From the IMG/VR virus record IMGVR_UViG_3300037963_005162, positions 1-35,419 of that record: a DNA stretch of 35,419 nucleotides. The stretch is one strand, 5' to 3'. The notes beneath the pieces were generated by a model. That model saw only the letters and a program-made list of their open reading frames with translations, was not told the DNA's origin and searched no databases. Positions 1,468 through 30,633 of this stretch are shown here, in pieces. The position numbers were made by a program, and so were the translations under genes. Position 1 is the first letter of the stretch. Every line of letters begins with the position of its first letter. The stretch is from a virus.

Positions 1468-4400
1468 TTAGATGTTAGGTTGAGGCATACCTAATCGCGT
1501 TGGACTTTTCTTTATCCGCTCCCTGCTTCCGGGGCGTTGCGGGTTTTGCATCCTAAAGTAAGGCAGAGTATCTTCTTCTGCCTCCCAGATTCCATCTCTA
1601 TCAATTCCAAAATCTATGTAAAATTGATTGAAGGTATCTAAAGTCTTCATGGTTTTATCAAACCAATCTTTATCTTTAGCTTTCATTACGCTCATCTCTT
1701 CTATGAACTGACTTCTTGTCGGGATAGTCCCCGGAGCAAGAGCGTAATGCAGTGGCGTCTTCAACCTAAGATGGGAGTTTAACTTCCTCTCGGCCTCAAG
1801 GTTAGACAACTTAGGGTCTTCTTCCTTTAAGCTGTTTAGCATCACGATCCTTAACCTAGTCGCCTCTTCCACATCCCCCCTACCAAGTGCTGATTGGAAC
1901 AGCCTTACGTCATTTGTTAGGACATTAATGTTTGCAACTGATGACGCAATAGTCTGGCCTTTAAAATGTTTCACATCAGATGGCTTATAGAAATTACGTA
2001 TAGCGTTAGACGCATTGGTGAAGCCCAACCATCCTTGTCCGTACTCAGTGAACTGATCCTTGATGCCTACAACCATTGGACTCATTCCGCGAGCCAAACT
2101 ATTAAGCCCATACGTAGGGTCTTTTGTTTCGGCAGTCTCAGCTAAATACTTAACAACAACACCAGCCTTTGATGCAAACAAACTGCCGGGGTGCATCATT
2201 CCTCTTGAAGGTGCTTCGTCAACAAGAGACTCCAGCCATGCGCCTACCATTGGGACTGAACTCAATGATAGACCAAGGAAAGCACGTGCTGAATCGGCAG
2301 GGTCTTTCTTGTCATAAGGCATTCCTTTCTTCGGCTCTCTGCCCAAGAAAGTTCGCATGAACCAATTGATCATCACCATAGCTAGAATTCCAGCCGGGAT
2401 GGAAGAAGCCATTAGGCCAAGCATCCATATCATACTGGCAAAAGACTGCTGTGCTTTATCACTGGCAGTTCCCTTCCTGCTCCTGCCTAAAGTTACGTTT
2501 GCTAGATTCTGAATTGCGTTACTTCCCCAACCCAACAACGCCATAAGCATTTGATTTGTTTTGGTAAGCCTTGCCCATGTTGGCCTATTACTTGGGGTTG
2601 CTGAGTTAGACTGAGTAACCCATCCCTCCGCAATACTGTTTCTTTGTAGATCAGTTAAGAACTGAGTTTCTTCTCCGCTTTCTAAGTCTTGAAAGAACTT
2701 CTTAGCTTCCTTCTGGAAGTTTGTAACTCCCCCTCTAGCCATCATACCTAAAGCGTTATTAAATGAAGCCTTGTTGGCTCTCATAATATACAAGTACCTA
2801 CCCAATAACTCTTCTTCAGATATGTCTTCTGTTAAACTGTCCCCGTAAATCTTCCTTCTGTTGTAGGACAGCCTAAGCATCCTCTCTATATTCCTTACAA
2901 ACTCTATGCCTGCATTCCAAAGCTGCACGTTACCGCTGATATCTCCCATACGGGGGAACACCGGCCTGCCAGCCAAAGCAAGTGCGGCCTCGGCCTGCCC
3001 AAAGCCAGACTGAATTGACCTCCCCAGAAGCTGAATAAATTCACTGTCAGTTTTGTAGGAGTTGATCCCGTTCCCTCCACTCATTAAGTCCCCGTAAAAA
3101 GCCTGCTCTGTTTCAATTGGAGTTACTGGCATATCAAGCCCGCGCTCTTTAAGTAAGCGGGCCTCATGCAAGCGCAGTGGCATATTCTGAAAAAACTCTT
3201 CTGCTGCTGGCGCAAGAAAGCCAGTAATTGGAGCGGTCGCTTTATGTAAACCTCTCGCCTTTATGAAAGCATCTATCATTCCGGGGAGTGATTTAAAAAT
3301 AAGCGCAGGCTTATCCCAGCTAAACTTCGGAGCAAAAACTTTCTTGCCAGCTTCTGTTCTAGTTAGCTGAGTTTCCAGCCCGGTGGTGTATCTGATAGCA
3401 GATGCTCCAGTAGATACCCCCATCTTGCCAATAGATGTCGGCCACCTAAGAAGCAACCCCTTCAAGAAAGAAGCAGCCCCTGTTTGCCCTTGTGCAGCGG
3501 CAAGATTGGAGCCGCCTATCACACTGGCATCAGTGCTGTTTTTAATTAAAGTACTGGCAGCTAACAAGGTTGACCCAATCACTGCTGATTGAGCGCGATG
3601 AAATCCTCCCGGCATTATATCTTCTTTTGAGCCAGCACTTCCGGGGGAATAAGCTGTAGCGTAGGTCTCCGCAATATCTCCAAGCCTCCTCTTCCAGAAA
3701 TAAAGCTCATCTATTGTCGGGATATAAGTCGTTCCTGTTGAAGCTTCAAGCTTGAACTCTTTCCTTAGTCTCTTCTCTAAAGCGGGAGAGTTTTTCGGGA
3801 AGCCTTCCTTAATAAGTTCCCTCCTCCTTTTAATAATATTATTCTCTAAAGTTTCATACTCTCTCTGTATGCTTTGAATTGAAAGCATTACATTTTCAAG
3901 AGGCTTACTGCTGCCCATTAAAGCAAACTTCTTCAAGTCTGATTCATTCCTAAAGCCATACTGGTAAAAATAGTACGGGCCTAAAGCATTTGAACGCGCC
4001 TTAACAAACGGCCCCTCTGCCTCAAGGTCTGTATACACAGCCGTGCGCTTTGTGTTTTCAGATGGAAGTATTATCCTCTCCAGAGAATTAAGAATGTCCT
4101 TATACTCTGACAGTATAAGCTGTTTTATTTCTGCTCTACCCTTGCCAGTTTCTGATTGCAGAAAATCAACCACATCGTCTGCGCTTACAGAGTCTAAGCT
4201 GCCATCCCCAATAGCCGCAGCAAGTTTTGAGTAAGCTTCTTCTAGTTCGCTTGGCCTCTTAATAAACTCTGGGTTCCTGTCTACTATAAAAGATAGCAGT
4301 GCCTCTTCATGCCCTGTGAATAAGTCGCTAAAGTCTTTCGGCCCAAGCTCTCCATTTGGTGTTGCGTTTCTTAACGTGCGGTAATTGGAGAGGAATGTCT

Positions 4401-7400
4401 TTGCTCTCTCGCTGAAGACGCGAGGAAGGAATGTCTTACCTTTTGCTAAAGGAAGTCTGACAATCGGGGCTGCCCCTTTCTTCCTGTCTACAATGTATGT
4501 AGGAGTAACAGACTTATCTAGGTCTGCAATGTTTTGATTAAGCGCATAAGCTTCATCTGTGATCTGCCCTTCAAAGTTTAACAAGGCCATGTCGGCTTCA
4601 GTGACTTGCTCGCCTGACATTAAGAAATCGCCTTCCTCTAAGTTCCTCCCCCCTTCTTGATGAGATGCCCTTAGCTCGTTCCCTACAGACAACTCCCACT
4701 GCCTATAGGTTTCATCTCTATCTATAGTGTTAAAGTTAGTATCATAGCCATGACTCTTGGCTGCTGCTTTCATCTTGTTCTTCCAAGCGTCTCCGTAAGT
4801 AGCGGCCCAAGCCGCCATTCTCTGGTAGTACAAGTTGTGCTTTCTTACCAATTGTTTAGTGACCTCAACAGACCTACCCGGAATATTGTTGAGGGTTTGC
4901 TCTAGAACAGAAAAAGTCCACCTGACAGGCAGCGCACGAACATTTTGTTTCGGGTGCATGACAAGCTCGGACATATAAATATTTTCAAGACTGTTCTGCC
5001 AAGCTTGATAGTAATCAAAGTACTCATGCTCGGCTCCATTAGTTATCAGCCAATCTGTAATTGCATCATAAGCCTCGCGCATTCTCGCGAGGTTCTCGTC
5101 TCCTTTTTTATCTGAGAGTATCTCAACAACTACAACCTTAGCTTTGTTCGTCCCTCTTTGTGGAACAGGAATAATAAGAGTATTGTTTTGGTAGTTGTCT
5201 GGCATTACCCCATCCAGAAACACTTCCTCTTCCACTCCTTCTTTGCCTTCTTTTATTCTGAAGACAGGAGTCTCTATTGCCTTAGCATCTTTATTTAAAG
5301 TTGCTAGGTATGCCTTTAACTCTGGATCATTTAGGAATCTATCTGCTATCTGCCTTGCCTCGTTGTAAGCTTGCAGCCTGTTGAACAAAGTGTTCAGCGG
5401 CTCATACTGCTTCTGAAAAATAAGACGTTGCCTTTCAGATTTCTTAGCGTAATTCGTAACGCGCTTGGTTGCAGCAGCAATAGCTTTAGCCTTTACTTCT
5501 GGGTCAGTATCTTCTAGCCCACGGATCAAGTCATCAGCAAACTTCTGAATACCGTCTTGCTCAAGGTCTCCATCTTCTGAGAAGACCAACGCCAGTGCGT
5601 TTTCTTTTAGTGACTTATTGGTAGCCAAGATACCAGCAGCAAGCTGCCACTTCTTGTATGTCTTGGTTCCCGGTTCAGCTAATGCAGGAGCATTGGGGTT
5701 CAGTGTTCTCTCTTTACTGTACACCTCAAGAATCCTGTCTGCCTGAGCGGCTACATCTGCCGCCGTTGCGTTAGGATTTACTTCTAATATCTCTGACCCT
5801 AAAGCCGCCTTTGAAACTACACGCGCAATCTCTTTTGCTTTGCCTCTGATGTTTGCAACGTCACGCTGATTCTCCAGAAGCGTCTCTTCATTCCCTGCAA
5901 TGTTAAGCAATACGTTTGCAGCCCTAACATCTGTTGACTCTGACGCTACAGCTATAGCTGCAATCCTGAATTGACGCTCAAGTTCCCTGAAGATTGCTAC
6001 TTCTTTTGCCTCCTTCTGGAGCGCGTCGTCTGCTTTGCTGATTATTTTTTTAACACGCTCTGAACGTAACTCCTTGGCAAGGTTTTGGTAGTTTGTTTCT
6101 ACCCACCTCATCCTTGATTGCAGTGTTTTAAGGAATGTTAAACTTGTATCAGCTAAGACCTTTGCCAACTCTGGCCTACCGTCTTCAATGAACTTCTGCT
6201 TCTGCGCTTCATACTCCTTCGGAAGAATAGAATCAGCAGCAACAGCACCAACACTATCCACAATGTTCTTTTTAATTAGTTTGCTTACTTGCTTAGTGGG
6301 AGTCTTGCCAGCAAGTATCCTATTTAATATGGAACTGACAGTTGTAGTTGCTGCCGCCGCCTGTCCTTTTAGTAAGTCTGCGCTTTCCCCTCTGCCTGCC
6401 TTCTCCAGTGTGGATAAATCTGTCGTGAGTTTCTTTGCGCTGGATATGTATATACTCCCAGCGTCCATTGCACTTCGCGTTAAAAGTCCTCCCGGCTTTG
6501 CCGCCCTGTTAAAGTCCAGCCCTTTGCCAGTCTTCAACATCTTCTCCACCTCACTAAAGAACCTCCTCTTTTCTCTTCGCGCAGCTACTGACTCAACACG
6601 TATCAGACTGTTGTCCAGTAACGCGCTGACAATATCCAAGGCAATCTCTACGCCTCTCTTAAACGCCCCTTCTGTAGACTGCTTAACCAGATTGCGGGCA
6701 TAGAACTCATCGGGGTTAATGATCCCATATAAATCTTGATCAATCCGGTCAAGTATATCCGTCTGTTCCTGAGAGATGGAGCCAGATATTACACTGTCAG
6801 GGTCGGTAGAAAACTCACCAGTGTTAGAGATGGCTGACTTGATCTGATTGTTATCAAATACAGCTAGGTTATCTCTGCCCATTTCATTGATGTAATAACC
6901 ATCAAACCCTGCGTACTTAATGTGTCTGGTAAACTTCTCTACTTCACTCCAGTGCTTGTACTCTAGCTCGCTAACAGCTTGCTTGACCTTATTGAGATAT
7001 AAATCTTCATTTATTGTTCCTCTTTGAATCTGTGAGAGATTGCCTACTGTTTCCACGGAGAAGCCGTTACTTAGTCTTTCAAGTGCAGCGTTTATCTTTG
7101 CGCTTTCCTCGGCAAAGGTTTCCAACTCCATGTCTATTTCTTCTTGCGTATAGCCAAATGATTCAAGTTCTGCAACGTCAGGTTCTCGTTGGTGGTTTAA
7201 AGAATCTGCTATTTTTGTATTAAAGCTCCATGCCTTTTCCATGTCTAGCTGATCTTGAAGGTACGCAGCGTCAGCAGCAGCATCAGCAACTGCCTGCTCT
7301 AAACGGAGCCGGTGTTCTGGGTTAGAGCCATCAAAAGGATTCTCTGCCCTTATGTACACTGGGTATATAGTTAAGTCAGTTCCGTGGCCTTTGAAGTATG

Positions 7401-10400
7401 CAGCATCATTGTTCACCAGCTTATTATCAGATAGCAATAAGCTAGACATTTTATTGTAAGGCTCAGTACCCGGCTCTACGTTTCCTAAGTAGAGTTGCCC
7501 AAACACTGGGTCGGGAGAGAAGAAGTGACCTATTCTTTTATCATTGTTCTGAACAACCTCTGCTTGAACATAATCTGGGAGAGGGTCTGATTTACTAAGC
7601 CCAAGCTCCGCTCTCTTCCTATCAATAAATCCACTAAGCTCATCAAACCTATCTATCTGTCCATCAAATGTTGTGGCGTGAAAGAATATCAATGGCTTGC
7701 CGTCAGCAGTTTTAACGACAGAGTCCCCAAACCATTCCGCAAACTCAGGAGTATTAACTTGCGGCTTGTCTATAAGCTGCAAAGCCTTAGCGTCAAAGCC
7801 TTCTCCTTGCTCCCAGTTGCCCGGATTGAACGCAGCAATTGATCCAGCTATTTCAGATTCAATCTTAGGTTCCTTGGCAATGATGATATCGCCACGGCGT
7901 TGCACGTTTCCAAATCTGTTCTCAATCTCTGGCAGATAATCAGCCGCCTTCCTGTTCTCCTGCCAGTTGTCTGGTTTTGTCTTAGGCGAAGCCCCCTCCC
8001 CTGTCCTGTTCCCTTCAAAGATTTTAAAGTAAACAGTACCTCCGGGCTTAACTGCATTAGCTGCCTGAGCTATAACCAACTGACGGACACGCGCTTCTTT
8101 AATCACATTAAGCACGTTGTTTACGGTAGCAGTATCGGCTTGCCCGTTGGCAATCCTAGCTACTACTTGATTGTTATGCTCTATAGTCCTATTGAAAGGA
8201 TCATAAATTAAATTCTCAACGCCCAGTGATTTTAAGTATTCAGTAGCGTTGTCAAACCTACCGCCCCCTATGTCTGCGTTTATCCCACCGGGAACAAACT
8301 CAACAAAGTTAGATGTGAAGGTGGTAGGCATCCTGCCTTGGTTAATTGAGGTGTCAGCAGAAGAGATATCTTGGGCAGGGTAGCTCCATAAGTTAAGCCC
8401 CTCTCCTATTGATCCCGCTATACTGTCATAGTATAAGGGGGTATCACTAGGTACTTCAGAAAGGATGATCCCGTTCTTTGCTGCTGCATTAGTTCTGATT
8501 CTTGCATAGTTTGCAGAACTTAATTCCCCTGCGCTCTTCTTGGCCTCATCTAAAATGTCCAGTTCCGTTTGAAGTATGAGCCTTTCTGTTCCGGTGGCTT
8601 TCTTAATAGCCTTCTTAATCCTCTTCTCTTCCTTTTCAAAAGCTTTAAGCTGTAGGCTCTTCACCCTTTTTCTGTACTGCTCAGGTAAAAGCTTTGCCGT
8701 GAAGTGGGCAATCTCTTCGGCAACAACTTCCGGGTTCGCGCTGTTTGCAATCTTGGCTGCGTTAGTTAAAGCGTTGAACGTACCATCAAACGTGACAGTC
8801 TCATTGCCATCTATATCTACACCTCCAGTAATCTCAAGCGTCAGAAGTGCTAGGGTTTTCTGGTCTAAGACTTCAATGAACTTGTTGAAGACTCTTCTCT
8901 GCTCTTCAGTTAATCCATTGTCTGTCCTGTTAACCAACTCTTTTATTTGTGCCGCTCCCTTTGCTTTAGGCAAATCGGGAATAGTACTAGTTGCACCTCT
9001 TTTTTTCTGTGAGGCTATGCTGCCAGCTAGTTCTTGTTTAATTAGAGGTAGGTTCTCATAGAAAGTTTGCGGGTCTTTATGTACTTGCTCTGCAAACTTA
9101 CGGGCCTTGACCTTATCTTGTTCGGTCATGGTCTCCGGGTTTAAGTTCAAAGAGTCAAGGCGTCTTAAAATCTGAATGCCCTGTTTGCTTTTCTGTTCAT
9201 CTGAACTATTGGCAAGCCCCTCAATCTTGTCGGCTTGTTCCTTTACAAAGGCATCAGCCTCCCTGTCTTCAAGTGTTCTTTGGCGTTGTGCGCCTTGCGC
9301 TGCGTCTATGGATTCCTCCACTTGCGCTTCAATAGCTTCAGATTCTCTTTGCTGCTGTGCCGCTGCTTGGTCTACCTCAAAATCTTCTGGGGCGAACTCA
9401 TCTAAAGCCTCTGCTTGTGTTTGTTGCGTGGTTGGTTGGAGCCTGCCAGTGCCGCCAGCCTGCCTAGCCTCATCAAACTCAAACAGGCCAGCCTTATTTG
9501 CTTCAGCCTTCTCTCCTGCTGTTTGAAGCAAAGATATAAGTGCTACAGTCCTGCGCTCTTTCAACCCCTTACCTTTGGCTTTAGATTTAAGGGACAGTGC
9601 TAGGTTCTGCTCATCCTTTAAAGACCCAGCAGTGGATTCATCTGTGGGGGTAGTTGTTTGCCGGGGGTCTCCTACTATACGCCTATAAACTGAAGGCTCA
9701 GAGGAGTTGCTTATAGCCTTGAGTAAATGCCTGCCTAATGTACTAGGATCAGCAACTGTTCCTGCATATACATCCGTACCTTTAGCCCCCTTAACTCCTG
9801 CTGCGTTAATTAACGCCCGCATCTGGCCAAGAGTAACTGTATTGCTTTCAACAAGCGGCTTTAGGATGCTCTTAATGTTCTTGTTTTTGATTGCATCAAC
9901 TACTTTCAACGCAATCTCTTGTTGAGGGACTACATCTGTCTTAGCTTTATCAGTCCTCTTACTAGTGTCTGACTTTGTTACCTTCCATACTCTGCCGTCC
10001 TCTTTGTTCTGGTCGTTAGCTATGAAATCTTGAGTGGTTATGTTCTTAGGAATCCGTGCGCCAACAACCCTCTTCTTTGAATCAAGTATGGTTTCAATTG
10101 CGCTATCATCTTGTATCGTAAACTCCTCATTGAACTTGGGTTTGCCTGTTGAAGAAACTCCTTGGTAGTAACCGATCCCCCAACTCTTTGTGTTCTTGTT
10201 GTATTTAAGAACAGCTTGCTGTGGGTTTTCCGGGCGAAGCGTGTACTCTAGTTCTACCTCTATGGGAGCGTCTTTAACTTGATCGTCTTTGACCCAGTTA
10301 AATTTTTTACCAACCTTTCTTTTAACTGTGTTAGCTATTACGTAATCAGTTTCTGGTTGTGGTGGTAATGTAGGGGTTGGTACTTCTTGCTCCTCGGTGA

Positions 10401-12192
10401 CAGATTGTTCTGGCGTAGTTGTTCCTATGCCCACATCCCCATCTTCTTGGGTAACTGCCCCCTGCCTGTTTTCTTTTTCTATACGCTCGTCTGCTCTTAG
10501 CTCTGCTATGGCTTGGTGAAATTCAGCAACAGTCATCCCGTCTTCTAGCTGAGAAGATAGGACAGGCTGCCCTTTTAGTTTTTCTAATTCTTCAGCTATG
10601 TATGCATCTCTTTTACGCTGGAACCCAAGCCTTTCAAAAATTATGTCACGCTCTTCTGGCTTTGCTGTTTGGGACTGACGTTCTTGCCTTGCCTCCTCAT
10701 ACTCTTGGTACGCTAAGTCTTCTTCTGTTTCTAACTCTTCGTCATATACTACTGGTAAATCTTCTTCTGTTTCAACGGCTTCGGCTTCAGCAAGGACTGT
10801 TTGGTTATTATCTATAATCTCAACAGCCATTTGTTCAGCTATTTGTTCAACATCTTCCTCTGTGATCTCTTCGCCTTGCGCCTCCCTAAAAGACTTTATT
10901 TGCGGGGCAACAGATTTCTTAAATTCTTCTCGCTGCTTACTTCTCTCATTGCGTAGCTCTTTGTTTGATTTACGGATAGCTGCCTTTCTTCCAACATAGC
11001 CGGGAATACTTCCTACTCCTGTGTATGTTCCTCCCATTGCAGCACCAAGGCCATAGGCAGTTGCAATCTCATTAACTATTTGCTTCCAAGGTTTATCTGG
11101 GTTGTAAGTTGCTGTCTGAACAATGCTCTGGGCAATAGAGTCTGCAACTTCTTCAGCCCCCTCAAACTGAGATTGTTTCAGTGAAGCTTTAATTATTCCT
11201 CCAATGCTTTGTGCGGCTTTAGGGTTGGCTAATAAAGATTCAATACCAGTTAGCCCAAATAAACCGACAATGCCCGCCGTTGCAGCACCTCCAATTGTTG
11301 CTGGAAGTAAGGCTTCTTCTGCTGAGTTAGCGTATGCTATATCCCATATCTGATCGTCTGTTAAGTCTGGGTTGTTTTCACGTAGTTGTCCTACCTTTTC
11401 GGCGGCATAGGTATCTAAAGCAGAAGCATAAGTTCCAGCACCAGACCGGAGGCCATGTATCCCAGCCATAGAACCGATACTCATTTTCTTCTGAAGCCTT
11501 CTTCCTGCTCTGCCAGCTAATCTTTCTACAGCTTCTTCGCCTACCTCTCTACCTAAACGCTGCGCTCCATACCTAACACCTTGCCTTCCTACCGCCGCAG
11601 CTACGTTTCCTACTCCTGCTGTCGTAAGAAGAAAGGGAAGCTCTTGGGCTAAGGCAGTTCCAATCATGCCCCCAGTAGCAGCAGCTTCTGGGTCGGGCAT
11701 GGTTTCATACTGGCTTTCAACTACATCCCCAAGCACCTGAGCGTAGGTATCTCTCTCTGCCAAAGCGTCTTGAAATTCTTCACGCTTCCTATCTGCCACC
11801 TCATCTACGGTTTCACCAGTAACTGGAGACTCATCCAGCACCATCCAATCCGGTAAATCTTTAAGCCTTTCAGTTAATGCTAAACCAGCACCTGAGTACA
11901 GTGACCCTATATCAGCGGCAGTCTTTTGAAGAGTAGCACCGAGGCCATCGGCAGTTGGGAAGTCTTGGTAAAACTCTGGCTCCCAGATAAAGTTGGAAAA
12001 CTCATCACTGTCTCCAGCAATAGAAGAGTAAGCACCACCTAACCCACTAAGGAACGGCGAGCTTTCAAGAAAATCTTCCTCTTCAGACTCTTCCCATATG
12101 CGCCTCCTCTCATCATTGCGGAAATCTAAAGGGTCATACTTCTTGTAAAGATTTGACCAATCACTATCTGTTAAGGTGTCAAAGTAGCTCAC
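1468..12192 (-). CDS. Giant multidomain internal virion / polyvalent protein with methyltransferase-like and ADP-ribosyltransferase-like domains
   Basis: A 3574-residue protein, nearly a third of the window, last gene of the late block. Its GTG start overlaps the previous stop (TAGTG). Visible parts in order: Gly/Ala-rich hydrophobic stretches at about 172-200, 295-325 and 378-398; an acidic repeat (ETEEDL twice) near 470-500; EEIAH at 1159-1163 in a zincin-like context (HExxH with the first His lost); a class I methyltransferase-like fold at about 1295-1440 (ADIGGGRFDNA near 1304, acidic YDPFN, KPGGTVYFK near 1380); an ADP-ribosyltransferase-like fold at about 1485-1795 (FFHATTFDG near 1502, GHFFSPDP near 1555, NEMGRDNLAVFDNNQIKSA near 1770) like ART domains of phage polyvalent proteins; then about 1750 mostly helical residues with hydrophobic segments near 2860 and 3253-3285. 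The position matches the T7 gp16 slot. Ejection with the DNA and action on host targets are inferred. Confidence 0.85.
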   Translation of the reverse strand: MSYFDTLTDSDWSNLYKKYDPLDFRNDERRRIWEESEEEDFLESSPFLSGLGGAYSSIAGDSDEFSNFIWEPEFYQDFPTADGLGATLQKTAADIGSLYSGAGLALTERLKDLPDWMVLDESPVTGETVDEVADRKREEFQDALAERDTYAQVLGDVVESQYETMPDPEAAATGGMIGTALAQELPFLLTTAGVGNVAAAVGRQGVRYGAQRLGREVGEEAVERLAGRAGRRLQKKMSIGSMAGIHGLRSGAGTYASALDTYAAEKVGQLRENNPDLTDDQIWDIAYANSAEEALLPATIGGAATAGIVGLFGLTGIESLLANPKAAQSIGGIIKASLKQSQFEGAEEVADSIAQSIVQTATYNPDKPWKQIVNEIATAYGLGAAMGGTYTGVGSIPGYVGRKAAIRKSNKELRNERSKQREEFKKSVAPQIKSFREAQGEEITEEDVEQIAEQMAVEIIDNNQTVLAEAEAVETEEDLPVVYDEELETEEDLAYQEYEEARQERQSQTAKPEERDIIFERLGFQRKRDAYIAEELEKLKGQPVLSSQLEDGMTVAEFHQAIAELRADERIEKENRQGAVTQEDGDVGIGTTTPEQSVTEEQEVPTPTLPPQPETDYVIANTVKRKVGKKFNWVKDDQVKDAPIEVELEYTLRPENPQQAVLKYNKNTKSWGIGYYQGVSSTGKPKFNEEFTIQDDSAIETILDSKKRVVGARIPKNITTQDFIANDQNKEDGRVWKVTKSDTSKRTDKAKTDVVPQQEIALKVVDAIKNKNIKSILKPLVESNTVTLGQMRALINAAGVKGAKGTDVYAGTVADPSTLGRHLLKAISNSSEPSVYRRIVGDPRQTTTPTDESTAGSLKDEQNLALSLKSKAKGKGLKERRTVALISLLQTAGEKAEANKAGLFEFDEARQAGGTGRLQPTTQQTQAEALDEFAPEDFEVDQAAAQQQRESEAIEAQVEESIDAAQGAQRQRTLEDREADAFVKEQADKIEGLANSSDEQKSKQGIQILRRLDSLNLNPETMTEQDKVKARKFAEQVHKDPQTFYENLPLIKQELAGSIASQKKRGATSTIPDLPKAKGAAQIKELVNRTDNGLTEEQRRVFNKFIEVLDQKTLALLTLEITGGVDIDGNETVTFDGTFNALTNAAKIANSANPEVVAEEIAHFTAKLLPEQYRKRVKSLQLKAFEKEEKRIKKAIKKATGTERLILQTELDILDEAKKSAGELSSANYARIRTNAAAKNGIILSEVPSDTPLYYDSIAGSIGEGLNLWSYPAQDISSADTSINQGRMPTTFTSNFVEFVPGGINADIGGGRFDNATEYLKSLGVENLIYDPFNRTIEHNNQVVARIANGQADTATVNNVLNVIKEARVRQLVIAQAANAVKPGGTVYFKIFEGNRTGEGASPKTKPDNWQENRKAADYLPEIENRFGNVQRRGDIIIAKEPKIESEIAGSIAAFNPGNWEQGEGFDAKALQLIDKPQVNTPEFAEWFGDSVVKTADGKPLIFFHATTFDGQIDRFDELSGFIDRKRAELGLSKSDPLPDYVQAEVVQNNDKRIGHFFSPDPVFGQLYLGNVEPGTEPYNKMSSLLLSDNKLVNNDAAYFKGHGTDLTIYPVYIRAENPFDGSNPEHRLRLEQAVADAAADAAYLQDQLDMEKAWSFNTKIADSLNHQREPDVAELESFGYTQEEIDMELETFAEESAKINAALERLSNGFSVETVGNLSQIQRGTINEDLYLNKVKQAVSELEYKHWSEVEKFTRHIKYAGFDGYYINEMGRDNLAVFDNNQIKSAISNTGEFSTDPDSVISGSISQEQTDILDRIDQDLYGIINPDEFYARNLVKQSTEGAFKRGVEIALDIVSALLDNSLIRVESVAARREKRRFFSEVEKMLKTGKGLDFNRAAKPGGLLTRSAMDAGSIYISSAKKLTTDLSTLEKAGRGESADLLKGQAAAATTTVSSILNRILAGKTPTKQVSKLIKKNIVDSVGAVAADSILPKEYEAQKQKFIEDGRPELAKVLADTSLTFLKTLQSRMRWVETNYQNLAKELRSERVKKIISKADDALQKEAKEVAIFRELERQFRIAAIAVASESTDVRAANVLLNIAGNEETLLENQRDVANIRGKAKEIARVVSKAALGSEILEVNPNATAADVAAQADRILEVYSKERTLNPNAPALAEPGTKTYKKWQLAAGILATNKSLKENALALVFSEDGDLEQDGIQKFADDLIRGLEDTDPEVKAKAIAAATKRVTNYAKKSERQRLIFQKQYEPLNTLFNRLQAYNEARQIADRFLNDPELKAYLATLNKDAKAIETPVFRIKEGKEGVEEEVFLDGVMPDNYQNNTLIIPVPQRGTNKAKVVVVEILSDKKGDENLARMREAYDAITDWLITNGAEHEYFDYYQAWQNSLENIYMSELVMHPKQNVRALPVRWTFSVLEQTLNNIPGRSVEVTKQLVRKHNLYYQRMAAWAATYGDAWKNKMKAAAKSHGYDTNFNTIDRDETYRQWELSVGNELRASHQEGGRNLEEGDFLMSGEQVTEADMALLNFEGQITDEAYALNQNIADLDKSVTPTYIVDRKKGAAPIVRLPLAKGKTFLPRVFSERAKTFLSNYRTLRNATPNGELGPKDFSDLFTGHEEALLSFIVDRNPEFIKRPSELEEAYSKLAAAIGDGSLDSVSADDVVDFLQSETGKGRAEIKQLILSEYKDILNSLERIILPSENTKRTAVYTDLEAEGPFVKARSNALGPYYFYQYGFRNESDLKKFALMGSSKPLENVMLSIQSIQREYETLENNIIKRRRELIKEGFPKNSPALEKRLRKEFKLEASTGTTYIPTIDELYFWKRRLGDIAETYATAYSPGSAGSKEDIMPGGFHRAQSAVIGSTLLAASTLIKNSTDASVIGGSNLAAAQGQTGAASFLKGLLLRWPTSIGKMGVSTGASAIRYTTGLETQLTRTEAGKKVFAPKFSWDKPALIFKSLPGMIDAFIKARGLHKATAPITGFLAPAAEEFFQNMPLRLHEARLLKERGLDMPVTPIETEQAFYGDLMSGGNGINSYKTDSEFIQLLGRSIQSGFGQAEAALALAGRPVFPRMGDISGNVQLWNAGIEFVRNIERMLRLSYNRRKIYGDSLTEDISEEELLGRYLYIMRANKASFNNALGMMARGGVTNFQKEAKKFFQDLESGEETQFLTDLQRNSIAEGWVTQSNSATPSNRPTWARLTKTNQMLMALLGWGSNAIQNLANVTLGRSRKGTASDKAQQSFASMIWMLGLMASSIPAGILAMVMINWFMRTFLGREPKKGMPYDKKDPADSARAFLGLSLSSVPMVGAWLESLVDEAPSRGMMHPGSLFASKAGVVVKYLAETAETKDPTYGLNSLARGMSPMVVGIKDQFTEYGQGWLGFTNASNAIRNFYKPSDVKHFKGQTIASSVANINVLTNDVRLFQSALGRGDVEEATRLRIVMLNSLKEEDPKLSNLEAERKLNSHLRLKTPLHYALAPGTIPTRSQFIEEMSVMKAKDKDWFDKTMKTLDTFNQFYIDFGIDRDGIWEAEEDTLPYFRMQNPQRPGSRERIKKSPTRLGMPQPNI
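4101..4117. promoter_or_regulatory. Dispersed palindrome, copy 1
   Basis: TATACTCTGACAGTATA: the 8+1+8 palindrome TATACTGT-N-ACAGTATA with one arm mismatch. It lies inside the giant gene, where the minus strand reads ILSEYK. It is probably an operator-like site for a dimeric DNA-binding protein, with no promoter nearby. Confidence 0.6.
8419..8435. promoter_or_regulatory. Dispersed palindrome, copy 2
   Basis: TATACTGTCATAGTATA: the same 17-bp palindrome with one arm mismatch. It lies inside the giant gene, where the minus strand reads YYDSI, in a different reading frame from copy 1. It sits just before the codons of an interdomain AGSI motif. Confidence 0.6.
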
Positions 12193-13931: not shown

Positions 13932-13948
13932 AATACTGTCACAGTATA
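13932..13948. promoter_or_regulatory. Dispersed palindrome, copy 3 (intergenic, abuts a start codon)
   Basis: AATACTGTCACAGTATA: one mismatch from TATACTGT-N-ACAGTATA, with 7-bp inner arms that pair perfectly. It fills the 20-bp gap between two genes and ends directly at the ATG of the 579-residue protein. A protein bound here, or a small RNA hairpin, could act on transcription or on start-codon access. Confidence 0.65.
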
Positions 13949-13951
13949 AAG

Positions 13952-14890: not shown

Positions 14891-14924
14891 GCGGAGGATA
14901 ATACCACACGGGAGTTATTATCGG

Positions 14925-15683: not shown

Positions 15684-15684
15684 T

Positions 15685-21340: not shown

Positions 21341-21342
21341 TG

Positions 21343-22305
21343 TTATACTGTAACAGGATAAGGCTCCCCTAGCCGAAGCATTGTTGCTTTAGGAAGGAAA
21401 ACATCAGATATAAAATTCATTAACTTGTTGTGGCACTCCTTACTTGATCTAATTAAGCACTCATAAAAAGCCCTCACTAGGTTGTAGGATATGTGGCGTT
21501 GCGCTTCTTTCGGTTTCAAATGGGCGTGAAAGCTAACCATCCTCTCTTTGTTTAGGTAGATGTCATCTCCTGCTGACATACCAAGCTCGGCAAGTAGCTG
21601 GTCTTTGTTGCTGTCTATGTTGGAAAAGGATGACTTCCAAAGCCCGTAGTTATGAGCCTCACTAAATAAGGAGGTGTCATACTGTTTGTAGATTCTCCCT
21701 AAGCACTCCTGCTCTAAGAATTTAGAATCACTTCTGAATGCGTTAGCCCAAAACTCTGGGAAGCTTGGGTCACCGGAGTACACATATCCTGCGTTGTAAA
21801 TACCGTAAGCCTGACAGGCTTCCTCTGTTATCAAGTGCGGGCTTAGTGATACCGGGTGCTGAAAGTTGCACGTGACAGGGTTCACCATAATCACATCCGC
21901 ATCTAGGAACAATGTGTTGCCGCTGCCTTTGATGGCCTTAGACATGATGTCCATCTTTAGGCTTCCTTCCGCAGGATTCCACAAGCTACCCCAGCTTGCA
22001 CAGTCAGGCCATATGTCTCCCAAGTTTTCGGGGAACTCACTACGCCTTTCTTCAAGGAACCCATCTGGGATGACAGTGACTTCTACGTTATCTGGGATAT
22101 CTTCCTCCAAGCATTGATGTCCAAAGGCATCTGTTAGTAGGTAAATTTTTTTATCAGAATGAAGGCGTATGCTATTCATAAGCAGTGCCGCTTCATAGCC
22201 GTGGTTGCCAGTTGCTACCGTGCAATAAGACTCAAGATTAGACGGGCCTTCTTCAGATTGCCTTGGAAGGTTTTTTATATGATCCGCTTGAGTCTTTAGT
22301 TCCAT
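21343..22305 (-). CDS. GT-A type glycosyltransferase (GT8-like)
   Basis: A 320-residue enzyme that should transfer a sugar from a nucleotide-sugar donor. Seen in the sequence: an N-terminal Rossmann-like start (SYCTVATGNHGYEAALLMNSIRL), the metal-binding DxD in TLFLDADVIMVNPV (Asp135 and Asp137), the acceptor-side YNAGYVYSGD at 170-179, and a late HAH (260-262) where GT8 enzymes have a metal-binding His. There is no signal peptide or membrane segment, so it should act in the cytoplasm. It lies between a VWA/Ig-like protein (TAATG overlap) and two fibre genes, so the simplest idea is that it glycosylates a virion surface protein made beside it. Modifying host glycans is an alternative. The fold is fairly sure; substrate and donor are not known. 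Confidence 0.75.
   Translation of the reverse strand: MELKTQADHIKNLPRQSEEGPSNLESYCTVATGNHGYEAALLMNSIRLHSDKKIYLLTDAFGHQCLEEDIPDNVEVTVIPDGFLEERRSEFPENLGDIWPDCASWGSLWNPAEGSLKMDIMSKAIKGSGNTLFLDADVIMVNPVTCNFQHPVSLSPHLITEEACQAYGIYNAGYVYSGDPSFPEFWANAFRSDSKFLEQECLGRIYKQYDTSLFSEAHNYGLWKSSFSNIDSNKDQLLAELGMSAGDDIYLNKERMVSFHAHLKPKEAQRHISYNLVRAFYECLIRSSKECHNKLMNFISDVFLPKATMLRLGEPYPVTV
21344..21360. promoter_or_regulatory. Dispersed palindrome, copy 5 (next to a start codon)
   Basis: TATACTGTAACAGGATA: one arm mismatch from TATACTGT-N-ACAGTATA. It encodes the last residues of the glycosyltransferase (PVTV-stop) and ends 3 nt before the ATG of the 417-residue fibre, much like copy 3. Confidence 0.6.
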
Positions 22306-24698
22306 TAGTTGACGCCAGTTTCTGATTCAAAATCCTCTGTAAAAATAGTTTCACTTGTAGTCCAAGTGTTTCCTGACTGGGTTCCTTTTTGTAGCTTAAC
22401 CTCTGCCAGAACTATCCCGTAAGGGAGGGGAGTTAAGAACTCATCTGCCCCGCTGGTATAAAACTTGTGGCTTTGGTTCCTGTCTCCAGCCACAACTTTT
22501 CCAAAAGCGTCAGTGAACCCACTAAAATCAGAAATTCTTAAAGGGTTCTCTTGTGTTCCTTTTATATCCTTGCAGTTATTACCTGAGAAAATTTTAACCC
22601 TCTCTGCGGCTGGTATTTCATGCTTAAAATCACGGTTAGCTTTTGAATAAAAATAAGGAAACTGCTCTATTCTTATTTTGTAAGAGCCTCCGTCGCCAAC
22701 GGGCAAAGGTAGTATGTATTCTTTCAATCCGCTTTCCGGGTCTACCTCTTCCGTAAATTCATAGAACGCTCCATCAATTTTCCTTGTCACTAAAACAGGA
22801 ATGCCATCCACAGTTTCAAGGGTTCCATCTAAGCTAGGGTCAGTCGCCCTCACTCCTTCAAGCTCTCCTTTTTGAGTTCCTCCAATTGTGACCCTATAGC
22901 TGCTGCCCAGCTTGGCCCCGTGTTGGCCGTGATGATTCTGGAACGCTGCTTTATTTTTAACCCTGTTCCCGCCTATCTTTAATACCAACCTATATTGAGC
23001 ATCTTTAATTAGGGGGAACTCATCTATTGTTTCAATGCCGCCGAAGTTGTGGTCAAATGGGACTGTTACACTTTGGCATTCTGAAGTGTATTCAATATAA
23101 GCACTTTTCAATTCCCATCGGCTTCCTGAGTCTGCTTCGTCTAGCAGAGGATACCCAGTGTTGCCTATCAAGCTGACATACATACCAGCATTAGGGTGCG
23201 CTGTGTTCCATAGGTCTTTACCTCTTAAATCTATACTGTTCTTACATACATTCCATCTCTTTAACCCGCTCTTTATCCCAAACTGATCTCTTAATTGAGG
23301 GGTGTCTCCTTTGCCTTGCCCTGTTGTGGGAATGTAATGGCAGGAATTATTAGAACCCCCAGTCCCTTTTGTGTTGTCTTGGCATATTGTATTTAAGATT
23401 TCACTAAACAATCCCTTCAGTCCGTCATGGTCTGTGGGGAAGAAGGTTAATGAAGTTGCGTTAGCTGTGTCGTTGCCGTAGCAGTTTGCTATCAGTTTTA
23501 AGTAGTTTTCTACAGTGATAGTAGCTCCGCTAGGAGAATTATTAGAACACCGCTTTATTGACTTACTTGAATCCAGCATGAACCCAACCACAGCAATCAT
23601 TGTGTCGTGAGCTTTTGTTGCCCCTGACTGTCCTAGCCTGTCTGCGCGTATAGCAGTGGCTACTGCTATGGGGTCGGGATCACATACATTTTCATAACCA
23701 TCAGTAAGGAGAATGATAAGTTTTCTTGGCCAAGCATTTGCTCCAGCCGGGTTAACTCTAGCCCCAACTTCTCCTTCTAAATCATAGTCATCTGACTCAC
23801 CTTTCAATATGTCATAAGCCAACTGAAGACCTCCTCCTATGCTAGTCCAGCACCCGCCACCCGGTTTACCAGTACCCCCATCACAATCTTCAGAGACTAA
23901 AAATTCTTCGTCATCAACCAACCCTAGAGCCGCTGTTTTTGTGTCAACAAAACCGCTAACAAATGAAACTCTTTTCTCCCCATCATCTCCAGCGTAGCTA
24001 ACAAACGCCATCCTATCTATTTCTTTGCCAACAGTGGTGTTAACGGATGTGTTCCCAGACGTAACTATCTTTTCGTCTTCACTGTCCCAAAGCTTGGAGT
24101 TTTTTATTAGCTGCCTGCAAGCAGCGCGGGCAGCTTCAGTGCGGGTCTCTTCTCCTGAGATAGCAGAATCTGTTTTAAGCATTGATGCGCTTCTGTCTAA
24201 AACAACAACAATGTCAATTGCACTGCCATAGCAACTAGCTTTAATTGTGATAGAAGAGGTTGACCTTAACTGGTCTGTGTAGTTTTTGGTTACACCATCA
24301 ACAACAACAGATGGAGTGTAAGTGGCTGTAACTTTTACAGTTAAATTATTTGTGGCCTCGCCGCCTTTAAACTCTCCACTTCCTAAGCTTCGTGCAATAG
24401 CTGAGTTGGCCGAAGACCATGCAGCTTTTTCAGTTACATCAATAGCTTTCTTGGTTCCGTCTTTGTACCTTAAATCTAAATAAGCAGAAAACTGAGCGTT
24501 GCCTGACGAACCAATCGTTACCCCACTTGCTGGCCTTATGTATAGCCCGTCAATAACTGGAGCATTGGTGCAGAAGTTTTCACCCATGATGGCTGCATAC
24601 AATGGATCAGATAAACAACGTGCGTCCTCGGTGTCTTCAATAACCACAGGTGCTTTCTCCCCAATGCAGGGAACATTCTTTATATTATCAAACTTCAT
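22305..24698 (-). CDS. Virion-associated VWA-domain protein with bacterial Ig-like domain (797 aa)
   Basis: Residues about 48-150 look like a bacterial Ig-like (Big2) domain: GLYIRPASGVTIGSSGNAQF, AAWSSANSAIARS and NNLTVKVTATYTPS. Residues about 160-440 form a von Willebrand factor A domain with an apparently complete metal-ion-dependent adhesion site: DRSAS at 168-172 (DxSxS), the Thr in GGGCWTSIGGGLQLA, and the Asp of LLTDGYEN near 333. The C-terminal 350 residues are beta-rich and not recognised. There is no signal peptide. VWA domains bind proteins or surfaces through a metal ion. In the middle of a tail gene group this suggests host adhesion or virion decoration, which is inferred. Starts and stops overlap with both neighbours as TAATG, so translation should be coupled. 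Confidence 0.75.
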   Translation of the reverse strand: MKFDNIKNVPCIGEKAPVVIEDTEDARCLSDPLYAAIMGENFCTNAPVIDGLYIRPASGVTIGSSGNAQFSAYLDLRYKDGTKKAIDVTEKAAWSSANSAIARSLGSGEFKGGEATNNLTVKVTATYTPSVVVDGVTKNYTDQLRSTSSITIKASCYGSAIDIVVVLDRSASMLKTDSAISGEETRTEAARAACRQLIKNSKLWDSEDEKIVTSGNTSVNTTVGKEIDRMAFVSYAGDDGEKRVSFVSGFVDTKTAALGLVDDEEFLVSEDCDGGTGKPGGGCWTSIGGGLQLAYDILKGESDDYDLEGEVGARVNPAGANAWPRKLIILLTDGYENVCDPDPIAVATAIRADRLGQSGATKAHDTMIAVVGFMLDSSKSIKRCSNNSPSGATITVENYLKLIANCYGNDTANATSLTFFPTDHDGLKGLFSEILNTICQDNTKGTGGSNNSCHYIPTTGQGKGDTPQLRDQFGIKSGLKRWNVCKNSIDLRGKDLWNTAHPNAGMYVSLIGNTGYPLLDEADSGSRWELKSAYIEYTSECQSVTVPFDHNFGGIETIDEFPLIKDAQYRLVLKIGGNRVKNKAAFQNHHGQHGAKLGSSYRVTIGGTQKGELEGVRATDPSLDGTLETVDGIPVLVTRKIDGAFYEFTEEVDPESGLKEYILPLPVGDGGSYKIRIEQFPYFYSKANRDFKHEIPAAERVKIFSGNNCKDIKGTQENPLRISDFSGFTDAFGKVVAGDRNQSHKFYTSGADEFLTPLPYGIVLAEVKLQKGTQSGNTWTTSETIFTEDFESETGVN

Positions 24699-26536
24699 TA
24701 GTTGGTTACTGTTCTTGTGGTGGACGTATCAGAAAGAGCTTTAGTTAAAGTGTATGTGTCTATTGTGGTTCCTGACTTGTTGATGAACTCAAACTTCAAA
24801 GTAGTTCCATCAACAGTTCCTTTAATAGCTCCGTTTTCTGTACTGTAAAATTTCTCTGAGGAGTACCCGCTAGGCAGGGTTGCTCCGCTCCCGCGAAGAG
24901 GCGCACCACCAGCCCCGTTCACTAAGTATCTAAAATCATTTGCATCCTTAATCCTCTCATAGTTATGAGAGTGACCAGAGATAACAACATCAGCCCCCAT
25001 ACCGGGGAAATCCCAGCGCATATCTGTATCTCCGGGGCCGTGACCACCACTTGAGGTTTCTGATGTGTATGGAGAATGGTGGAAGTAAACCACCTTCCAG
25101 TGAGATGTGCTACTCCCAAGCTTTGACTCCAACCACTCATGCTGGCCTCCAGTAATGCCAACACCTAGCTTGGCGTTGTATACACTGTTATCAGTTCTCT
25201 TGTTGGAGAATAAGCAGAAAAAGTGAATCGGGCCTTTGACGAAGTCATAGTACTCCTCATTGTTTGGCAGGGTGAAATAGTTCTTGTAGTGGGCCAACCC
25301 TGCATCTGTTGTCCCGTAGGCGTCAGTAATATCATGGTTGCCTATTGCCGGGAAAAACCTATTGCCAGTTGTTGCATTAGATGTGCTTGTGTATCCGTGC
25401 AATCCAGATTGGCCATATGGGAATATGAAGTCTGAATACCACTGACCTACGTTTGTATCTAAATCTGTAGCAGTGCTTTGATCGCCACCACTTGCCCCGT
25501 AGCTATTGTCACCAGTTGTGATAATGAACTCTGGAGACCAACCCTTAACCAAGGTGGCTACTGCACTAGCATTAGTTCCGTCATAAGCAGAGCCAGAACC
25601 TCCAACTGATGCTCCGTAATCCCCTATGACTCCAAACGTAAAACTAACATCCACTGCTTGAGAGGGAGCTAGTTCTGTTGTGGCGGCTTCCGCGACAGTT
25701 GTTATCGTTGCTTTCAACGCCTCATTGAAACGCTGATTTCTCCTGACGGCTAAAATGTCATAAGCCTCTGGGCAGAAGAATGTCTTCTTAACTTCTGTTT
25801 GCCTCTTGCACTCATGGATCAAGTCGCCCATTGCAGTGTCAAAGTCCATGCTCATGTACTTGTAACGCTCATAGTCGTTATCAAAGTCACGGGCATACTC
25901 GCGCTGGACATACAACTTAACAGCCCTCTTGAAGTCTATGTCTTCAATGACTGCATCATCTGGTGAGTACTTAGTCTTTACCCCGTCCCACTCAACAACA
26001 ACAATCTCGTCAGAATTAATCCAAGGAGATATGTAGATGCGGTCACGGTCTATTGCCCACTGACCAATTACAGCCCTGCCATGTTTTTTTGTTAGCAAGG
26101 TTTTGGTTGTCCCACTTCGGCTTACCTTGTAATCAGAATCTTCATCCGGGTACTTGAAGCCCATCGGTAAAGGCTCCCTGTCCAGATTCTTTGGAGGATA
26201 AACCATAGACAACAGCTTGAGGCTGTTACACTCAAGCTGGTCTAGTGTTACTTGGGTAAACAGGGCGGGATAAACCTCGTCCCCGTCTTGATCTAGTATT
26301 GTGTATACCTTGTTGATGCGCCCTTTAGGAGCGTCAATGACAGTCTTCCCTCCTTGGTAGTAAGTGGAACACTGTGGATATCTGTTGATATTTCTGGACT
26401 GAAGACATGGAATATACCGCTGGAGATGAGTTACTGCCGCCTCAAAGTTTTTATTGATGGGCGCGACAAGGTTTTCTGGAACCCCTTCGGGCCAGATGTC
26501 ACTACGTAACTCTGTTACCAGTTCGGAGAATTTCAT
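24698..26536 (-). CDS. Tail connector-like protein fused to a calcineurin-like metallophosphoesterase (612 aa)
   Basis: Residues 1-270 are helical with aromatic strands (WPEGVPENLVAPINKNFEAAV at the start; DFKRAVKLYVQREYARDFDND near 205) and occupy the slot of the T7 gp11-type connector. Residues about 295-525 are a metallophosphoesterase of the purple acid phosphatase type with all five metal-site blocks: GDYG (near 302), GDNSYG (near 342), GNHD (near 398), HHSPY (near 486) and GHSHNYER (near 520). An 85-residue beta-rich tail follows. No stop or frame change separates the parts. It should hydrolyse phosphoesters, perhaps of host surface polymers or lipids, from the surface of the particle. 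The enzyme family is sure; the connector role and virion location are inferred from order. Confidence 0.8.
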   Translation of the reverse strand: MKFSELVTELRSDIWPEGVPENLVAPINKNFEAAVTHLQRYIPCLQSRNINRYPQCSTYYQGGKTVIDAPKGRINKVYTILDQDGDEVYPALFTQVTLDQLECNSLKLLSMVYPPKNLDREPLPMGFKYPDEDSDYKVSRSGTTKTLLTKKHGRAVIGQWAIDRDRIYISPWINSDEIVVVEWDGVKTKYSPDDAVIEDIDFKRAVKLYVQREYARDFDNDYERYKYMSMDFDTAMGDLIHECKRQTEVKKTFFCPEAYDILAVRRNQRFNEALKATITTVAEAATTELAPSQAVDVSFTFGVIGDYGASVGGSGSAYDGTNASAVATLVKGWSPEFIITTGDNSYGASGGDQSTATDLDTNVGQWYSDFIFPYGQSGLHGYTSTSNATTGNRFFPAIGNHDITDAYGTTDAGLAHYKNYFTLPNNEEYYDFVKGPIHFFCLFSNKRTDNSVYNAKLGVGITGGQHEWLESKLGSSTSHWKVVYFHHSPYTSETSSGGHGPGDTDMRWDFPGMGADVVISGHSHNYERIKDANDFRYLVNGAGGAPLRGSGATLPSGYSSEKFYSTENGAIKGTVDGTTLKFEFINKSGTTIDTYTLTKALSDTSTTRTVTN

Positions 26537-26538
26537 GC

Positions 26539-26979: not shown

Positions 26980-26991
26980 ACCGGATCAGTA

Positions 26992-27028
26992 TATAAAAAT
27001 AGGGGCGGTATTGACAACCGCCCCTATT
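26992..27028 (-). terminator. Intrinsic terminator after the major capsid gene
   Basis: On the minus strand, AATAGGGGCGGT and ACCGCCCCTATT form a perfect 12-bp stem with a 7-nt loop (TGTCAAT), followed by a T tract (TTTTTATA). It begins 23 nt after the capsid stop. It is the clearest terminator in the window and should reduce, but perhaps not stop, transcription into the tail genes. Confidence 0.88.
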
Positions 27029-27051
27029 GGAATTCCTTTCCTTAGATGAAA

Positions 27052-28980: not shown

Positions 28981-29002
28981 AATTTATTGTTTCCCTTTTA
29001 AA

Positions 29003-29022
29003 AGCCCTTCAACAATTGGGCT
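29003..29022 (-). terminator. Weak hairpin in the scaffold-capsid gap
   Basis: On the minus strand AGCCC and GGGCT can pair around a 10-nt loop, followed by TTTAAAA. The stem is only 5 bp, so this may be a weak terminator, an attenuator or a processing site that sets the capsid-to-scaffold ratio. It may also be chance. Confidence 0.3.
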
Positions 29023-29037
29023 GAAAAGCATATTGTA

Positions 29038-30633
29038 TCATCCCCATAGACGCTTATGCATTTTTTTATTATCACCCATGTCTACAGTAGTGGAGGGGTT
29101 CCCCCCTGTGGCAGTTACTGCCTCTCCCGCTGTTGATGGAGGGTTGGTTTTAGCCCGCTTTTGTTGAGTGTTTTTAACTTCTCCGTTTTTCTTTGGGGAA
29201 CTTTTTTGCCCGGACTTATGTTGAACATACTTGTCAAATATATCCCTTTGTTTATCTATGCGGCTTTTAGCCTCACTTCCTACGTCAGATATATACATGG
29301 CCTTTATATGCTCTGGCTGTAAATGCCAGTACCCTAAACGCTGTGACTCATTCATTTCTGACCACTGTTTAGTTGTCGCGAACCTACGCCCTTCGTGCAT
29401 CTGGTCAGCTAAAGGAAGCTTAGAGATGTCCTGCTCTTTCTTTATTGCAAAATCAATAAGCATTTTGTGGGTGTCATTGTTCACATTAAGCCTAAACTTT
29501 TTAGAGGGGTGAGTAAGCTTTTCAAGTTCATATAAGGCTTTTTCATTAGAAGCTAAAACCTCATTAAGTACATCGTGGGCCACAGGGTCGGCCTCCTTGA
29601 GGGCGTCTCCCCCTCCGTCTTGAACTACCTTCAAGTAGCTCTCGTCAGCTATCTTTACTATTTCAGCAACGCTATTATTTGAAGCCTCCTGCAACTCCCC
29701 CTTCATGTTCCCCTCCTCAACAGAAGAGCGCAGTTCTTCTATCTCACTCCGGTAGGCCCGCTCCTGCTCTTTGATTAAGCTTCTAGCTTTTACGGTGATT
29801 CTGGCATCAGTGAAATCGTTAGCCTCATAACTGGGCTGGTTATCAGAAATAAAATCTTCATGCTCTAGGTCATCCATGTTGAACTCGGAAGAAGGATTAT
29901 CCTTTAACCACTGGGTCTTATACTGTGACAGTTTAGTAAGGTATCCTAAGTATTTATCTTTAATGCCTGCATACTTAGGGTCTTTCTCCATTTCTGAAAA
30001 GACCTCAAGGTCAGCCCTGTTCTTGGCTTCAATCTGGCTCACTGGCTTTTCAGCGGGGGCGGCTTCTGCAACTGCCGGGGCAGGCTGCTGGGCTACAGAT
30101 TGCGCGGTCTCTCTAATTATTTCCTTAATCTCTTCAGCATCAATACCCTCTTTCTTTCTCCTTTTACGCTTGGCCTTTGCTGGCTCTTCCGAAGCTTCCT
30201 CTTCGGGTTCTTGTGCGGGTTCTTGTGCGGGTTCTTGTGCGGGTTCTTCTTCAGCAACTTCTTCCGCTTGAGCCTCTTCTGGTGCAGGCTCAGAAGGTTG
30301 CTCTGGCTCTGCTTTTGCTTTCTTGGGCTTTGAAAAACCGAGGCGATCCATAAAGTTGTCCACAGCATCTGAAACCTCTTCTGCTTGCTGCGTTTCTTCT
30401 GTGGCGGGAGCGGCATCGGAAGCTGGCTCTTCAGTTTGGGCTGGCTCTTCTTGTTCTGCCATGTTGGGGGATATGGCGTCTAATGCGCGTACCACCCCAG
30501 AAGCTTTAGGCTGGGGGTTATTAATGTCCTCATTGCCGGTTAAGCCTTCTGGCTCAGGGGCTTTGCGGATTTTCATTTGTGGCAAAGCCGAAGCCGCCAT
30601 GTGTTGTTCTACTCTTTCAGCTATTTCGCTCAT
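29038..30633 (-). CDS. Scaffolding protein (531 aa)
   Basis: Highly charged helical protein directly before the capsid gene, the usual place of a scaffold. Residues about 40-150 are very acidic and rich in Glu, Pro, Ala and Gln, including the tandem AQEP repeat at 128-143. A basic patch follows (KAKRKRRKKEG, near 150-160), then coiled-coil-like helices to about 450. The C-terminus is basic (HKSGQKSSPKKNGEVK, then KKMHKRLWG at the very end), as in scaffold proteins whose basic tail binds the capsid subunit. No protease motif is visible, so the scaffold may leave intact. The leader AACAATAATCTTATG resembles that of the capsid gene and has no Shine-Dalgarno. Confidence 0.78.
   Translation of the reverse strand: MSEIAERVEQHMAASALPQMKIRKAPEPEGLTGNEDINNPQPKASGVVRALDAISPNMAEQEEPAQTEEPASDAAPATEETQQAEEVSDAVDNFMDRLGFSKPKKAKAEPEQPSEPAPEEAQAEEVAEEEPAQEPAQEPAQEPEEEASEEPAKAKRKRRKKEGIDAEEIKEIIRETAQSVAQQPAPAVAEAAPAEKPVSQIEAKNRADLEVFSEMEKDPKYAGIKDKYLGYLTKLSQYKTQWLKDNPSSEFNMDDLEHEDFISDNQPSYEANDFTDARITVKARSLIKEQERAYRSEIEELRSSVEEGNMKGELQEASNNSVAEIVKIADESYLKVVQDGGGDALKEADPVAHDVLNEVLASNEKALYELEKLTHPSKKFRLNVNNDTHKMLIDFAIKKEQDISKLPLADQMHEGRRFATTKQWSEMNESQRLGYWHLQPEHIKAMYISDVGSEAKSRIDKQRDIFDKYVQHKSGQKSSPKKNGEVKNTQQKRAKTNPPSTAGEAVTATGGNPSTTVDMGDNKKMHKRLWG
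29919..29935. promoter_or_regulatory. Dispersed palindrome, copy 6
   Basis: TATACTGTGACAGTTTA: one arm mismatch from TATACTGT-N-ACAGTATA. It lies inside the scaffold gene, where the minus strand reads KLSQYK. Confidence 0.6.
30205..30252. repeat. 12-bp tandem repeat in the scaffold gene
   Basis: Three perfect copies of GGGTTCTTGTGC and a fourth that diverges in its last four bases. On the coding strand each unit gives Ala-Gln-Glu-Pro. The unit length is a multiple of three, so copy number can change by slippage without breaking the frame. Confidence 0.9.

Follow-up and report, generated by a model that had tools for sequence, protein, structure and literature searches.

Probable dispersed operators of a phage-encoded repressor in the late gene block of an uncultivated phage

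Why does one specific 17-bp palindrome recur at wide intervals through the virion genes of a phage? The question is raised by the virus record IMGVR_UViG_3300037963_005162, a single record of 35,419 bases (hereafter, the window) that starts inside an integrase gene, ends after a terminase gene and carries six copies of the palindrome TATACTGT-N-ACAGTATA. As judged from sequence comparison, these palindromes are probably operators of a phage-encoded immunity repressor, which would silence the prophage in a stoperator-like manner. This reading, proposed in the initial annotation as a dispersed operator system, is supported by the presence in longer relatives of ~20 sites over all transcription units, by an orientation bias of the sites, by sites flanking a gene for a helix-turn-helix (HTH) protein, and by co-variation of the operator with the HTH. 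The six sites are located as follows.

4101 to 4117: site 1, TATACTCTGACAGTATA, within the giant virion gene 1468-12192, at about codon 2694
8419 to 8435: site 2, TATACTGTCATAGTATA, within the giant virion gene 1468-12192, at about codon 1255
13932 to 13948: site 3, AATACTGTCACAGTATA, intergenic, abutting the ATG (13931) of gene 12192-13931
17204 to 17220: site 4, TATACTGTAATAGTATA, within gene 16124-18160
21344 to 21360: site 5, TATACTGTAACAGGATA, 3 bp before the ATG (21340) of gene 20087-21340 and overlapping the 3' end of gene 21343-22305
29919 to 29935: site 6, TATACTGTGACAGTTTA, within gene 29038-30633

All six positions, first reported as 8+1+8 palindromes, proved correct, each copy having exactly one arm mismatch to the perfect sequence, and no further copy was found in the window at ≤3 mismatches. 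As had been described, four sites lie in genes (4101, 8419, 17204 and 29919), and the other two (13932 and 21344) adjoin start codons. When synonymous codons were shuffled within each gene (300 trials), the mean number of sites at ≤1 mismatch was 0.027 with a maximum of 1, against the observed 6; at ≤3 mismatches the mean was 1.05 and the maximum 4, and dinucleotide shuffles of the window gave 0.09 sites at that threshold. The earlier chance expectation of 0.0004 copies was thus too low, although the conclusion drawn from it still holds. Palindromes of any sequence were not markedly enriched (24 in the window versus a shuffle mean of 15 and maximum of 27), indicating that the signal is one specific word. 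Protein coding, which the initial annotation had argued does not explain the sites, and chance are both excluded by the codon-preserving shuffles together with the conservation of the cores relative to their flanks, as described below.

Relatives were found through the terminase, yielding 35 loci of a family of uncultivated phages (designated here by G and L numbers). In phages with the same class of palindrome, the 17-bp cores matched at 16-17 of 17 positions while their flanks were 67-79% identical, in a test that took in the five of the six window sites whose surroundings align to relatives. Thus, the core of site 1 is kept at 17/17 in G001 and G002 with flanks 67-69% identical. The core of site 6 is likewise kept at 17/17 in L036, L045, L015, L042, L033 and L011 (flanks 68-98% identical), and in the last five of these the flanks are only 68-73% identical despite the identical core; other relatives have class-specific variants at this site. 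The flanks of site 2 are too diverged to align by blastn, and its core recurs unchanged within the giant gene of both G001 and G002. Neither the codon-preserving shuffles nor the comparison with relatives, the two checks named in the initial annotation, thus refuted it: in relatives, the palindromes are either kept far better than their flanks or, as shown below, exchanged in place for another palindrome of like shape.

The longer relatives extend this picture beyond the late genes. G001, at 51 kb, carries 18 sites, and G002, at 64 kb, carries 23, against one match each with a reversed-pattern control, and the sites run through both the early plus-strand and the late minus-strand blocks, including early gene starts, with a late-block spacing of one per 3-9 kb. 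In G001, G002 and G003, the integrase start is preceded at 3-5 bp by a site (4 bp before the ATG in G002). The initial description of the sites as confined to the minus-strand block, with none near the integrase, is therefore true of the window and not of the longer relatives; the late-block-only impression arises because the window contig is truncated. Six of the G002 sites are perfect, and five of these fall within 2.4 kb at 8.1-10.5 kb. A longer inverted repeat (for example CTCTCACCGC...GCGGTGGGAG) is centred on some early-region sites, forming a dyad of roughly 40 bp (8740-8830 and 11440-11510 in L043 (G002); 6540-6600 and 9650-9700 in L078). Single exact palindrome matches in other viral contigs were judged to be chance, as there were no further sites and no candidate gene there.

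A de novo palindrome search in relatives recovered further classes, making five in all, whose sites are near-perfect palindromes of 17-19 bp. These are TTAAACTAT-N-ATAGTTTAA in G013 (14 sites), AATAACTGG-N-CCAGATATT in G005 (about 20), TATAACCT-N-AGATTATA in G003 (about 9) and TTATACTT-NN-AAGTATAA in G007 (10). They occupy places that are shared across classes: the site upstream of the integrase is common as a position to G001, G002, G003, G005 and G013, and the window sites at 13932 and 21344, which precede the orthologues of G002 36231 and 44208, are kept in G001 and G002, whereas G003 and G013 have different palindromes there. Sites also stand at orthologous spots before the orthologues of G002 20536, 12681, 11526 and 59651, and G005 has a site at codon 25-26 of the orthologue of G002-3010. 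Moreover, L015 carries the TATACTGT class within a TATAACCT group, showing that the class switches between near relatives. In G005, a AATAACTGG-class phage, a decayed TATACTGT-type site with 3 mismatches (53513-53529) is surrounded by genes with unusually high similarity to G002; it is apparently a recombination import, and its decay would be expected if the resident repressor does not read imported sites. A motif GTAACAG-NNN-CTGTTAC in L086 and L080 was rejected as a short-period repeat within one stretch, and L086 has the TTATACTT class like its repressor relatives.

The sites are asymmetric relative to transcription, and this holds on both strands: the ratio is 6:0 in G003 and 12:2 at the informative position in G005, with a trend only in G002 (mismatch in the upstream arm 11:3, p = 0.057) and G001 (p = 0.12). 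They lie mostly outside genes (14/23, 11/14, 15/20, 6/9 and 7/11) in genomes that are 9-16% non-coding, often 0-10 nt before an ATG. Such placement, together with the likeness of the half-site TATACT to a -10 hexamer, would suit ordinary operators at which a repressor blocks initiation at local promoters, with no block of elongation; a multi-promoter regulon of this kind is found in P1 C1 and SPbeta MrpR, both of which use dispersed sites. We regard this explanation as possible but rather unlikely, since no conservation beyond the core, including a -35 or initiation signal, was found around the sites, which speaks against promoter elements; promoter-like matches in the control region were not above shuffles, and no obvious promoter is served by the two sites that fall at codons 1255 and 2694 in a gene of 3574 codons. 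Adjacency to start codons could also reflect a messenger RNA hairpin for processing or translational control, given that the palindrome could form a 7-bp stem with a 3-nt loop. However, among the mismatched arm pairs read in the mRNA sense in G002, G013, G005, G003 and G007, 4 of 87 were G-U, 19 were A-C and 64 were other; the rarity of G-U speaks against such a hairpin, no Rfam family was found in the window, and an RNA-level element is barely credible.

In 10/10 records with an early region, one fast-evolving gene family lies beside or between sites, and its product is a small HTH protein. The putative repressor genes are as follows.

8859 to 9380 in G002: putative repressor gene
60620 to 61372 in G013: putative repressor gene
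1677 to 2237 in G005: putative repressor gene
L078, L079, L107, L088, G007, L085 and L086: further putative repressor genes

The putative repressor gene of G002, L078, L079 and L107 is preceded by a perfect site at a distance of about 80-100 bp and followed, about 45 bp past its stop codon, by a perfect or one-mismatch site. The four TATACTGT-class putative repressors all carry EGG[FY]Sx[SQ]HAxN. Between G002 and L079/L107, which share the operator, the HTH is 55% identical and the C-terminus 17-19%, whereas between G002 and G013, which have different operators, the HTH is 30% identical and the C-terminus 44%. By this criss-cross of five sequences, it is the HTH, as opposed to the remainder of the protein, that the operator class tracks. 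Homology of the HTH links the protein subfamilies (hhalign profile comparison, E 1.9e-5), and an AlphaFold2 model of the 173-aa candidate is all helical, with an HTH-like pair at 63-82/87-100 and a separate C-terminal helical hairpin (predicted local distance difference test (pLDDT) 65.7, moderate). The candidate had no integrase-family match, and its profile matched none of the phage repressor chains in the PDB at E ≤ 5, a very remote relation being still possible; no CI-type HTH_3 was found above cut-off. A sigma-70 region-4-like protein (G002 18124-18552) was also considered as the binder and rejected as a misfit, because its conservation stays at 48-51% between phages whose operators differ. 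Separately, L043 (G002) encodes at 5277-5807 a fusion of a single-strand-binding protein to a sigma-70 region-4-like HTH, which is kept across the family.

How such a system might work can be outlined, although binding, dimerisation, repression, roadblocking and lysogeny are all steps that we infer. The repressor, presumably encoded by the gene between the best early-region sites (G002 8859-9380), would be a small helical protein (about 170-250 aa) whose HTH is central and whose C-terminus forms a separate helical hairpin. Because the sites are palindromic, they are probably bound by a dimer, which would sit on each 17-bp palindrome with one HTH per half-site. The perfect sites flanking the repressor gene would serve autoregulation and keep the early promoter shut, while leaky transcription of the prophage would be silenced through the weaker sites, which have one mismatch and lie within genes or at their starts; those with no promoter nearby would act as stoperators, that is, as roadblocks. 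Positive elements, either promoters of a phage polymerase or sites for a lytic activator or antiterminator, might also account for the presence of a single site at each early gene or operon, the orientation bias and the adjacency to start codons. We consider them improbable on account of the near-perfect symmetry, the unconserved flank and initiator, the sites deep in genes and the perfect sites on both sides of the putative regulator gene; no single-subunit RNA polymerase was found either, which is a weak test as the control also gave no match.

The distribution of the sites in the family bears on what they could be for. In the terminase tree, 20 contigs that include the four dispersed classes split from 11 others with essentially no late-block sites. 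G007, of the latter clade, has ten sites, all in the early region, and neither G006 nor G011 has any in the sequenced part. Late-block sites are thus, by this comparison, a trait of one clade and not required in the phage group. A lone 1-mismatch TATACTGT site occurs at 10607-10623 in L027/G010, a phage in the clade otherwise without late-block sites. Segregation, DNA packaging or nucleoid organisation, raised as alternatives in the initial annotation, would fit the wide and fairly even dispersal over the late block, and one family member weakly matches a phage ParB-like profile (E 0.079). Against these roles, an integrase is present (in 6/7 long relatives), ParA and ParB (ParB_N) gave no match in G002, G005, G013 and G007 where controls did match, the sites show a preference for gene starts and for the direction of transcription, and the sister clade does without late sites. 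Segregation is therefore disfavoured, and we hold this group of explanations to be very improbable.

Several points weigh against the operator reading. The repressor assignment is based on synteny and co-variation, the putative gene lies outside the window, and the criss-cross between HTH and operator rests on five sequences. The AlphaFold2 models are weak (pLDDT 65.7 and 46.9), the second being too poor for use, and a fold search of the candidate against solved structures, for which the model is too uncertain, gave no significant match (all E > 0.7). The candidate also had no curated-family match above cut-off in Pfam, PHROG or NCBIfam, including repressor families. The G003 motif by itself is modestly above shuffles (9 vs 5). 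The long members of the sister clade of 11 terminases (G006, G007 and G011) lack late-block sites, and a related terminase was absent from 84,980 bacterial and archaeal genomes in both single-sequence and alignment queries, so that no prophage or host was seen.

Dispersed repressor sites are best described in the cluster A mycobacteriophages (L5, Bxb1 and TipsytheTRex), which have about 20-30 genome-wide stoperators, oriented with transcription, at gene borders and with one near the repressor gene, and in which heteroimmune relatives differ in the site consensus and, along with it, in the repressor (PMC6550527, PMC9283540). The present phages share the copy number (23 in G002, 18 in G001, about 20 in G005 and 14 in G013), the orientation with transcription (clear in G003 and G005, a trend in G002 and G001) and the co-variation, the HTH following the class in the sequences compared. 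The L5 site is, however, an asymmetric 13-mer read by a two-domain monomer, in contrast to the present 17-19 bp near-perfect palindromes with half-site symmetry and a candidate with no detectable relation to that repressor. As it differs in these two defining features, the asymmetric site and the L5-type monomeric repressor, the system is not a member of the cluster A stoperators. Also unlike cluster A, several sites lie deep inside genes, and the phages show weak terminase similarity to any annotated phage. The best reading of these comparisons is a system independent of the cluster A mycobacteriophages, with a new repressor family.

Other dispersed systems differ as well. P1 C1 has 22 repressor operators spread over the genome (PMC8546580), each an asymmetric 17-mer in a plasmid prophage, unlike the palindromes here, which accompany an integrase with no ParA or ParB found. 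In SPbeta, the short repeated element SPBRE occurs at several places of the prophage and is bound by one master repressor, MrpR (YopR) (PMC10516654); it is 15 bp long and intergenic, and MrpR has a tyrosine-recombinase fold, whereas the candidate here is modelled as small, all helical and with an HTH. Dispersed repeats oriented with transcription and mostly intergenic are also known from phage T1 and Citrobacter phage Stevie (PMC4319613); unlike the palindromic sites described here, they are asymmetric, and they belong to lytic phages and have no known function.

The fullest form of the proposal, to which we give an even chance, is an independently arisen stoperator immunity with undescribed, fast-evolving dimeric HTH repressors, elongation roadblocks far inside virion genes, sites re-coded in place with changes of specificity, and natural immunity groups. 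Few systems of dispersed silencing of a whole prophage are known, and a second, unrelated and palindromic solution would, if true, mean that such silencing has evolved repeatedly. Since a fragment of a contig suffices to tell the operator class, immunity groups of uncultivated phages would, on the same condition, be predictable from metagenomes. Many sites switching at conserved places with one HTH also form a natural data set for studying the joint change in specificity of a regulator and its ~20 sites.

The remaining features of the window place the six sites in context.

1 to 483, plus strand: integrase (tyrosine recombinase; Pfam PF00589, E 2.6e-17), its 5' end cut off by the contig
1468 to 33638, minus strand: late (virion) block holding the six sites
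33670 to 35142, plus strand: terminase large subunit (Pfam PF04466), the basis for finding relatives and building the tree

Among 50,697 annotated phage records, haloviruses and Gordonia phage Jace came closest by terminase, at less than 60% identity. G002 (62819-63043) and G003 (48890-49114) encode a 74-aa protein whose N-terminus (MMEAHTLLEVLLVIAMLGIL in G003) is pseudopilin-like; it is possibly a hint to the host group, and its Pfam match was weak and unrelated. Between the integrase and the giant gene, the window has a T5orf172/MUG113 (GIY-YIG-type) gene at 557-1357; there is nothing at this place in G001 and G002, and the gene thus resembles a mobile insertion. The 3574-aa product of the giant gene (1468-12192) shows a weak ADP-ribosyltransferase (ART-PolyVal) match and a repeated [IV][AS]GSI-like motif (LAGSIASQK, IAGSIGEG, IAGSIAAFN and ISGSISQEQ), whose copies could be polyprotein processing or linker sites. 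Finally, the region 22305-26536 encodes a 797-aa structural protein with a von Willebrand A domain and a 612-aa structural protein that is a calcineurin-like phosphoesterase with a purple-acid-phosphatase-like C-terminus.

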